Source: Candidatus Methanophagaceae archaeon
GTDB lineage: Archaea > Halobacteriota > Syntropharchaeia > Alkanophagales > Methanospirareceae
Length of the DNA stretch: 64,000 nucleotides
NCBI GenBank assembly: GCA_003194435.1
Contig: PQXC01000012.1
Coordinates: 1 to 64,000, forward strand
Direction of reading: 5' to 3'
A model generated the notes under the pieces. That model was not told where the DNA came from. It worked only from the letters and a program-made list of their open reading frames with translations, and did not search any database. Within the stretch, counting starts at the first letter, position 1, and each line of letters begins with the position of its first letter. Made by a program: the position numbers and the translations under genes. Shown piece after piece: positions 35,190 to 44,584 of the stretch.

Positions 35190-35810
35190 TTATTTCTTGT
35201 CTCCATAGATCAGGAATATCGGATAAGAAGGAGCGAGTGCGGTTTTACCACCCAAGTCCTTGCCCCTGTTCAAGCAGATATTCAGAACCTCAGGATTGAT
35301 ACCTCTGTTCTTCAATACTGCTATGGCTTCCACCACAGTCTCAAGTCTGACTGCTGCAATAATAACCCTACCTCCCGTCTTCAAATGCTTGAACACGTTC
35401 TCAAACGATTTCTCAAGATTGTCCGTACCGCCGAAGAAGGCAACATCGAAACTATTACTATCTGTATCTGATAAATTGATATGTTCCATTTCACCAAAAA
35501 TAAGCCGGATCTTGTCAGCCAGTCCGAATTTTTCTATATTCTCACGTGCTATCTCGAAATTCTCTTCGTCCTTCTCCACCGCCGTGACATCGCAACCCAA
35601 CAGTGCGAATTCGATAGAAACGCTTCCTGAGCCCGTGCCCACATCTAAAATTCGCTCGGTTCCTTTTATCCGGGCTTTTGAGGTGATGACCGAGCGAATT
35701 TCTTCTCTTGTCAAGCCTGCTTTCGATCTTGAGAACAAGCTGTCAGGTATTCCGGTTGTTTTATATTGCCACTCCTGCTTCACTCCCAGATTCTGTTCCA
35801 CGTCACTCAT
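35190..35810 (-). CDS. cbiT: Cobalt-precorrin-6B C15-methyltransferase (decarboxylating)
   Basis: 206 residues: QYKTTGIPDSLFSRSKAGLTREEIRSVITSKARIKGTERILDVGTGSGSVSIEFALLG with the SAM-binding DVGTGSGS, then VTAVEKDEENFEIARENIEKFG. It methylates C15 and decarboxylates the C12 acetate chain. CbiE, its usual partner, is not seen here. Its 5' part is duplicated upstream (36013-36246). The intact copy keeps its own start but follows duplicated sequence instead of cbiO directly. Confidence 0.92.
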   Translation of the reverse strand: MSDVEQNLGVKQEWQYKTTGIPDSLFSRSKAGLTREEIRSVITSKARIKGTERILDVGTGSGSVSIEFALLGCDVTAVEKDEENFEIARENIEKFGLADKIRLIFGEMEHINLSDTDSNSFDVAFFGGTDNLEKSFENVFKHLKTGGRVIIAAVRLETVVEAIAVLKNRGINPEVLNICLNRGKDLGGKTALAPSYPIFLIYGDKK

Positions 35811-42895: not shown

Positions 42896-42995
42896 CCCCA
42901 AGTTATGCATCGTGGCGTATGGCGTGGAGTTCGACCTGCTTCTGACGCCAATCCACAAAAAGCTGAAAGTTTACCATTAATAAAAGCCCGCCCGA

Positions 42996-43119
42996 AGCGA
43001 TTTTATATAACGTTCTGGGGATATGTGAAGTTTGCGAGAGCAAATTTGGGCGAGCGTGAGCGAGCCACATATCCTCCTGTTATGCGCAGCGAACGCCCGT
43101 GAGCGTAGTGTGAAAATCG
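42996..43119 (+). ncRNA. Candidate structured RNA with two GNRA-capped hairpins
   Basis: Nested pairings: outer GCGATTTT (42996-43003) with AAAATCGC (43112-43119); ATAAC (43007-43011) with GTTAT (43079-43083); GGATATGT (43019-43026) with ACATATCC (43067-43074). Inside lie two hairpins: TTTGC-GAGA-GCAAA (43031-43044) and GGC-GA-GC-GTGA-GC-GA-GCC (43049-43066), the latter with opposed GA/GA steps able to form sheared pairs. Both loops fit GNRA on the plus strand. No known RNA family was recognised. The overlapping plus-strand frame (42905-43102) has no protein-like features. Confidence 0.5.
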
Positions 43120-43141
43120 CAAAGCAATCCTCCCATATTAA

Positions 43142-44371
43142 TTAATTGCCTTTTTCTCCAACTATTTCAAATTTTGATGGCAGCGGGTATTTTGCATACT
43201 CATTTCTAATAACTCTTGCCTTATGGGAATAAATGTACCCTTGAGCATCCTTTACAAAATACTCTGTTGTGACGATAACTCCAGATATAGTAGAATTATT
43301 TTTCAGTAATTGTTTAATCAGGGAGTCGAGTCGCTCGAAATCCCTATCTATCATCTTACGATCTATCATGTTTAAATTAACGTAGATTAATCCAGGTCGC
43401 TTTCCACTTAACTGTTGTTTAGCATCTTTAATAGTTTCAATTACACTTGTAATACGCTCAGGAAGTACAGCACTTTTGAAGCCAAAAATTCTTGGATTTC
43501 TGATAAAAATTTTACCATTTTCTTTTTTTCGTACTTCTACTGCTGGAACCACATAATCAAGTTCCTCACTTGTACCAAACTCAATTCCTTCTGATTCTAT
43601 TTCTTGATCCTTTAAAGAAAGTATCTGTAAAGTAATGCCAATACCTCTATCACGAAATGCGAACCTGCCCTGCTTTTTTTCTTTTATAAGCTTCTGAAGT
43701 TGCCGTAAGATAAATTCCACGTCTTCCTTTTCAGGATCTCTTTGTGTTTTGATATAAAGTGCATAATTTAGTCCGAAGTGCTCCATCATTCCAGATGCCT
43801 TACGCGAAATCAATTTCCAATATTCGGTATTTCTTATATCTCTGTTAGTCTTTCTATCTTTTTTCTTACATTCAACTTCAACCTCTTTATTGACCAATAA
43901 GTCTGGAGTTTTTTCTCGTTCTTTTGATTTTGTCTCTACAAATTCAACAGAATAACCTTTCCGTGCATATGCAGCAGCTACTTCGATTTCATAAGTTGTT
44001 TTATCAAAAAGTGCTTTGTCAGATGAAGTCAAATCCCGAATTTTCCCATCTAAACCTTTGGTATTCTGATTCTTCAAAACAAACAGGTTCTCACCAAGGT
44101 AAGATAATCTTAGAATTTGTTCGGAAACCTCAAAAAATTTCTTTTCAACACAAGTTTTCAATTGCTTATCTGTTTGATAAATTAGAAAAGCTAAAGGGTG
44201 AAATCTTTCAGTATAGTCAATAAAACTCAATTTTCTTAACTTCTTAGGTGGTTTATAAGAATAAATCTTCTCAAGTTCTTTAGAGAGCCAAGCATTTCCA
44301 ACTACATCTCCAACTAATTGTTTAACTAGCATTATATATTTTATGCAATTCTCAAAATTTATTTCCCTCAT
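43142..44371 (-). CDS. PD-(D/E)XK-like nuclease domain protein, AT-rich
   Basis: 409 residues, Lys/Glu/Ile-rich. Residues about 130-180 hold YEIEVAAAYARKGYSVEFVE, then TPDLLV and VEVECKKKD, the E...PD...(D/E)xK layout of restriction-endonuclease-like folds (compare archaeal Holliday resolvase and Mrr-like domains). The C-terminal half has no recognised domain. The DNA is clearly more AT-rich than neighbouring genes, and flanks hold structured repeats, so it is probably horizontally acquired. No methyltransferase is adjacent. Role (defence, repair or selfish) is open. Confidence 0.6.
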   Translation of the reverse strand: MREINFENCIKYIMLVKQLVGDVVGNAWLSKELEKIYSYKPPKKLRKLSFIDYTERFHPLAFLIYQTDKQLKTCVEKKFFEVSEQILRLSYLGENLFVLKNQNTKGLDGKIRDLTSSDKALFDKTTYEIEVAAAYARKGYSVEFVETKSKEREKTPDLLVNKEVEVECKKKDRKTNRDIRNTEYWKLISRKASGMMEHFGLNYALYIKTQRDPEKEDVEFILRQLQKLIKEKKQGRFAFRDRGIGITLQILSLKDQEIESEGIEFGTSEELDYVVPAVEVRKKENGKIFIRNPRIFGFKSAVLPERITSVIETIKDAKQQLSGKRPGLIYVNLNMIDRKMIDRDFERLDSLIKQLLKNNSTISGVIVTTEYFVKDAQGYIYSHKARVIRNEYAKYPLPSKFEIVGEKGN

Positions 44372-44395
44372 AGTAGTCCCTCATATCTACCCTTC

Positions 44396-44536
44396 TTAAA
44401 ACCGATTTGAGCATTGCGTATAACTCGTTATATCTGCAATGCGTATATCCTTCCATTTTGGTGTTATATCCGCAATATTGCGCATATACATCCCTCTGGA
44501 TGAAACTCCCATTTCCTCGATCTTCCTTCCTTTCAT
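44396..44536 (-). CDS. Possible 46-aa ORF upstream of the nuclease-like gene
   Basis: 47 codons from ATG, ending 25 bases before the nuclease start on the same strand. The product (start MKGRKIEEMGVSSRGMYMRN) repeats an (R/D)IADIT word twice (NIADITPKWKDIRIADITSY), which mirrors palindromic DNA in this stretch. No family recognised and only a weak ribosome site, so it could be leader sequence. Confidence 0.3.
   Translation of the reverse strand: MKGRKIEEMGVSSRGMYMRNIADITPKWKDIRIADITSYTQCSNRF
44411..44482. promoter_or_regulatory. Cluster of palindromes upstream of the nuclease-like gene
   Basis: GCATTGC (44411-44417) pairs with GCAATGC (44436-44442), and inside them TATAAC pairs with GTTATA. 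Thirty bases on is a perfect 12-bp palindrome CGCAATATTGCG (44471-44482). The GCAAT/ATTGC core recurs four times in 72 bases, as expected of multiple sites for one dimeric regulator. Confidence 0.45.
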
Positions 44537-44584
44537 CCTTTTACGCCTCCTCCATTCTCTTTCTCAAACAAACTATCTAACTAT

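Follow-up and report, generated by a model that had tools for sequence, protein, structure and literature searches.

The window, a stretch of 64,000 nucleotides from a draft genome (1.81 Mb, about 93% complete) of a Candidatus Methanophagaceae archaeon, contains a short element between aroE and a nuclease gene, which a first-pass annotation had delimited at 42996-43119 and interpreted as a candidate structured RNA. aroE lies beyond the site at 43085-43005, on the opposite strand. Listed from mptE towards aroE, the features of the locus are:

45274-44585, minus strand: mptE (product name from reading of the sequence)
44540..44580, minus strand: 3'-terminal remnant of an integrase gene (...LDSLFEKEN...; about 13 codons), directly after mptE
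44425..44494, minus strand: attI-like site, which can be aligned with attI from complete systems and from contig C28 of this genome
44492-44465 and 44450-44429, minus strand: inverted-repeat units within the attI-like site
43079..44424, minus strand: gene cassette of 1,346 bp, opening with GTT (R' of attI) and closing with AAC (R'' of attC)
43142..44371, minus strand: cassette gene, 409 aa, PD-(D/E)XK nuclease-like (PDLLV...EVECKK, a motif common to distant homologues)
43079..43089, minus strand: R'' box CTGCGCATAAC, placed by cassette-end pairing and attI comparison
43005..43085, minus strand: attC-like recombination site (R'' ... R'), which folds and scores 95.7 bits (E 5e-21) with covariance model R1, the window itself being in the training set
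43067..43077, plus strand: 3' arm of helix P3 (fold and homologue alignment)
43049..43066, plus strand: hairpin C, GTGA loop (fold)
43028..43047, plus strand: hairpin D, GAGA loop (fold)
43017..43026, plus strand: 5' arm of helix P3, pairing with 43067-43077 with T43075 bulged (fold and homologue alignment)
42997..43011, minus strand: R' box and next bases GTTATATAAAATCGC, placed by cassette-end pairing and attI comparison

A conserved, folded site

Every pairing drawn in the first-pass annotation was found in 42980-43130. On folding both strands of this interval the plus strand stands out, with a minimum free energy of -49.2 kcal/mol where shuffled sequences give -38.7 +/- 3.2 (z -3.3; 1 shuffle in 200 did as well), and the minus strand does not (z -0.7); these energies use RNA parameters. 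We read the element as a DNA site whose 'bottom' strand, the one that folds, is the plus strand. The stem previously noted at 43019-43026/43067-43074 is part of the central helix P3, which hairpins C and D join to make a three-way junction. The original limits of the element enclose the site and its flanks, but the actual unit extends to 44580. Upstream of R'' in many sites (at L023 and L009, for instance, and at 43090-43129 in the window) there are two recurrent hairpin modules, ..GCGGTGCTTCGCACCTTGCCCTTCGGGTCACTTAAC and ..CTTCGGTGCTATCGCACTCGGACAAC, which may represent a terminator or an additional protein-binding arm.

Diverged copies were found by BLAST in the window's genome and in 23 of 59 relatives. 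An alignment of 28 homologous sites (A1) formed the basis of model R1, which, with E-values from a short calibration, located 15 sites in the window's genome and further sites in 45 of the 59 relatives, and none in 12 of 16 same-phylum genomes outside the class. Among the 28 homologues, 87.9% of cells are paired across the structure, double-sided changes number 81 against 29.6 in shuffles, and the covariation score is 0.353 against 0.161 when shuffled, a value that none of 500 shuffles reached. In P3 by itself the paired share is 91.8%, and 7 of its 10 pairs have changed on both sides, as in the arm pairs GGATATGTG/CACATATCC, GGGCTATACG/CGTATAGCCC and GAGCGTATCTG/CAGATACGCTC; the suspicion of a selected fold with compensatory changes in the named stems was well founded. 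Read on the minus strand, each site has the layout NNNNAAC-A-P3-[hairpin C]-CAAAT[hairpin D]ACTTC-P3'-AGAAC-GTTNNNNGAAAT, and in many cases a gene begins some tens of bases past its GTT.

Cassette ends, attI and the integrase

The sites form tandem arrays: neighbours are co-oriented (67:2) at a median spacing of 1.1 kb, and the longest ATG open reading frame lies on the cassette strand by 41:6 and 49:2 in two sets. Each cassette ends in the palindromic site, and the window holds one such cassette. We compared the five variable bases next to AAC/GTT between different sites. Over 67 pairs of neighbours, 3.91 of 5 bases match between R'' of one site (n) and R' of the preceding one (n-1), with 46% of the pairs perfect, against 2.85 for the two arms of a single site and 2.76 (8% perfect) at random; by permutation, pairing with the neighbour gives z 9.8 and pairing within the site z 1.0. 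Pairing between the outer arms of adjacent sites was considered and rejected, at 2.79 of 5; it is the inner arms that pair. R'' therefore pairs with the R' that opens the same cassette, these being both ends of one cassette, and the complementarity extends beyond the box (z 8.0 and 4.9). A second set, comprising sites beside related integrases in GTDB genomes, gave 4.21 of 5 over 53 pairs, with 62% perfect against a null of 6% (z 10.4), some R1 matches in this set being individually weak (E up to 0.5), though the bases compared, which belong to different sites, played no part in their selection. Many of the compared genomes are metagenome bins; cultured isolates give the same result. In the window, the cassette start GTTATACGCA and end TGCGCATAAC are complementary at 9 of 10 positions, with one mismatch. 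Co-oriented arrays with cassette ends matched in this way are the product expected when circular cassettes recombine at AAC|GTT, and neither a folded RNA nor a transposon end predicts them. We interpret this pairing across copies as the signature of an integron.

Arrays also have a partner for their first site. In 17 of 19 arrays, the first R'' has an 8/8 complement no more than 300 bp from the integrase stop, against 7% at other loci, and a lineage-conserved sequence precedes this complement; by its position and conservation, we identify this as attI, joined to the first cassette. In the window and at other loci, attI consists of repeats of about 40 bp with an inverted repeat, of the type TATATGCGCAATATTGCGGATATA, and repeat copy number varies, there being two in the window and three in the sister genome G006.

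Complete systems of integrase, attI and array are present in ANME-1-type archaea and, next to related integrases, in Paenibacillus, Saccharibacillus, Halanaerobacter, Nitrospirae and others. An array comes after the integrase on the same strand at L130, L131, L132 and L133, and a linked tyrosine-recombinase integrase is present at these, at L233 and at others; the window retains the 3' remnant only. The L133 integrase (351 aa) has the integron integrase IntI4 (2a3v) as its best PDB match, with the IntI-specific region missing, scores above the cut-off of NCBIfam recomb_XerA_Arch, and shows a weak HARP-like match at its N-terminus. The spacing from KGxKDR to HxLRH is 65-66 aa, with no insert, in all 41 integrases measured, where IntI1 carries an insert of about 41 extra residues; the additional (I2) domain specific to IntI, held to be indispensable in known integrons, is absent from the integrases examined, as judged from alignments to IntI4 and IntI1. 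In GTDB, relatives of the integrase occur in archaea (Methanophagales, Altarchaeum, Micrarchaeota) and in bacteria (Nitrospirae, Aminicenantes, Atribacteria, Treponema-type spirochaetes, Clostridia, Halanaerobacter, Paenibacillus, Saccharibacillus), and R1 sites near them lie downstream of the integrase by 91:3 and are co-oriented by 88:6; the link between integrase and sites is at the level of the genome. The NCBI product name for this protein group is already 'site-specific tyrosine recombinase/integron integrase'.

We are confident in reading the element as the attC-like site of a gene-capture system of the integron type, carried by an archaeon resembling Ca. Methanophagales (ANME-1). In the proposed mechanism, a tyrosine recombinase whose N-terminal part is a HARP-like domain would act on the double-stranded attI beside its own gene, and on the hairpin formed by the single-stranded bottom strand of attC; exchange between AAC and GTT would then insert or excise circular cassettes, each a gene with its site, all in one orientation. 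In the window the integrase has been deleted to its last ~13 codons, leaving attI, one PD-(D/E)XK nuclease cassette and its attC, and further movement would hence need an integrase in trans.

Weighing the alternatives

The most serious alternative concerns current activity and not the identity of the element: the locus may be a dead relic in the window's genome, which we consider possible but less likely than not. The integrase is deleted in the window, and a gene of this family was not found in the draft genome at the threshold used, where it may be missing from the draft or supplied in trans. In Methanophagales archaeon Kmv05 (L172), the 3' end of the integrase gene, coding for ...SPLDRLFEKESGEV up to the stop codon, and the attI after it are 83% identical to window positions 44580-44419; nucleotide matches of 80-89% between the Kmv05 contig and genomes of the window's family are the basis for assigning the host to Ca. 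Methanophagales. Against a relic stand the 15 sites in the genome and the cassette differences from a sister locus, which suggest recent turnover. In G006, mptE to attI is 94.97% identical to the window in nucleotides, and homology ends at 44428, 4 bp from the crossover predicted for the window attI between 44425 and 44424; beyond it lie different genes and two different sites. The two loci are one platform with different cargo, and the sequences show that cassettes have been exchanged here between sister species.

The cargo itself matched no significant family in Pfam, NCBIfam or PADLOC; its distant homologues are 25-29% identical, two of them also adjoining attC-like sites, and a role in defence may be envisaged. 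A truncated copy of this nuclease cassette with the R'' half is present in a genome of a different family (G040:C1:228394-228710; L063, L251), 92% identical in nucleotides over 311 bp (89% in amino acids) and broken just past R''. The window's genome also has a second platform (G000:C28:35470-41391, L150), with attI at 35470 and four co-oriented sites, in which the end of an IS3-like transposase open reading frame, as read from sequence, occupies the integrase position.

It is very unlikely that these are ordinary CALIN elements, that is, canonical attC sites moved in trans by a classical IntI with an I2 domain, even though the layout is integron-like and classical-IntI integrons are reported in archaea (PMC9668308). 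A search with the integron-integrase model found relatives below threshold in related genomes: TIGR02249 scored 237 (the L133 integrase) and 213 bits against a curated cut-off of 265, and nothing exceeded that cut-off among 59 relatives. The arrays instead adjoin the insert-less integrase. AAC/GTT cores are retained, but the full RYYYAAC...GTTRRRY consensus on both sides is satisfied by only 11 of 127 and 6 of 94 sites in two sets, and the layout of P3 with an internal loop is unlike the L boxes and spacer of attC.

The initial proposal of a structured non-coding RNA, a ribozyme or a leader now seems highly improbable. The fold is strong, conserved and covarying, and GNRA-like loops are present: the two GNRA hairpins described (GAGA and GTGA) do occur in the window's copy, but the feature is not general, GNA triloops being the commonest type (82 of 122) and the tetraloops among copies comprising 24 GNRA, 11 GNYA and 25 others. 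The sites are located at cassette junctions, beside attI and integrases, and the outer variable bases of R'' pair with R' of the neighbouring copy and not with their own, a pattern that DNA recombination accounts for and RNA does not. Furthermore, the better-folding strand is opposite to the transcript of the cassette genes in 123 of 127 copies, which is no more than consistent with recombination of a bottom-strand attC, and an Rfam search with the element returned no family at gathering score and none at E<=5.

Scarcely tenable, finally, is the view that a transposase has spread a MITE, a REP-like element or an IS-end palindrome. The site is an imperfect palindrome, dispersed and multi-copy, but the cross-copy pairing test led us to reject this reading: the copies are interspersed with unrelated genes in arrays of one orientation and show both the R''(n)-R'(n-1) pairing and the attI match, neither of which is predicted of such an element.

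Relation to known integrons and Xer recombinases

The integron layout is complete, and the I2 domain and, mostly, the R-box consensus are lacking; hence we describe an integron-type system that stands outside the classical IntI/attC families. As in the integrons of IntI1 and V. cholerae IntI4, a tyrosine recombinase is combined with attI and with co-oriented cassettes that end in a palindromic site, sharing an exchange point between AAC and GTT, a better-folding bottom strand and complementary cassette ends. Unlike in those systems, the integrase has no IntI-specific insert, can carry a HARP-like N-terminal domain and is co-oriented with its array; the R boxes mostly depart from RYYYAAC/GTTRRRY; the site has a 5x1 internal loop and apparently no consistent extrahelical base, one bulged base occurring on the L'' side in 11 of 28 aligned sites and being absent in the others; and the archaeal sites have a three-way junction with CAAAT/ACTTC motifs. 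The system thus reads as an integron in mechanism and, in its parts, as a variant new relative to the classical families. The missing insert and non-canonical R boxes probably explain why standard tools overlook such sites.

Integrons in archaea were reported in 2022, their integrases being classical IntIs with the additional domain (PMC9668308). The arrays of Ghaly et al. 2022 resemble ours in being carried by archaeal MAGs, mostly without an integrase, but differ in having IntIs with the IntI-specific domain and sites located via IntegronFinder/HattCI; the main text does not name ANME or Methanophagales (PMC9668308). With IntegronFinder 2.0, RefSeq archaea yielded no integron and Firmicutes/Bacillota a single complete one (PMC9024848). 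No I2-less integron was found in the openly accessible literature searched, and an earlier description elsewhere is possible. With XerA and XerC/D the integrase shares a catalytic domain without insert, and recomb_XerA_Arch above its cut-off; integration of CTX-phi by XerCD demonstrates that a folded single strand can serve as substrate for Xer proteins (PMC4792948). The system described here differs from both in that its integrase is a dedicated one, accompanied by an attI and a cassette array.

Integron theory sees co-evolution between the I2 domain and the extrahelical bases of attC; how I2 arose is, for Escudero et al. (PMC4792948), a chicken-and-egg paradox that might be resolved through intermediate forms. 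One such form is a complete integron layout whose integrase lacks I2. On balance we favour a separate I2-less integron lineage in archaea and many bacterial phyla, which would capture genes via folded single-stranded sites, escape current detectors, and represent either a long-sought intermediate between Xer and integrons or an independent origin of the integron mechanism. This lineage would take in Gram-positives in culture and, probably, a plasmid of the Bacteroidota. Cassette capture is now known to reach ANME-1-type methanotrophic archaea and Bacillota, and cultured carriers (Saccharibacillus sacchari DSM 19268, Paenibacillus spp. and Halanaerobacter jeridensis) make the question of I2 origin testable.

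Two observations concern plasmids. In Acinetobacter plasmids (e.g. NZ_CP104735.1), TnpF-type recombinases are ~52% identical to the catalytic part of the integrase. A Chryseobacterium plasmid (NZ_CP041688.1, 6959-9498; L255) encodes a HARP-type integrase of 41.8% identity; cassette-like genes in a common orientation accompany it, along with a single weak R1 site and, further on, an IS110 transposase.
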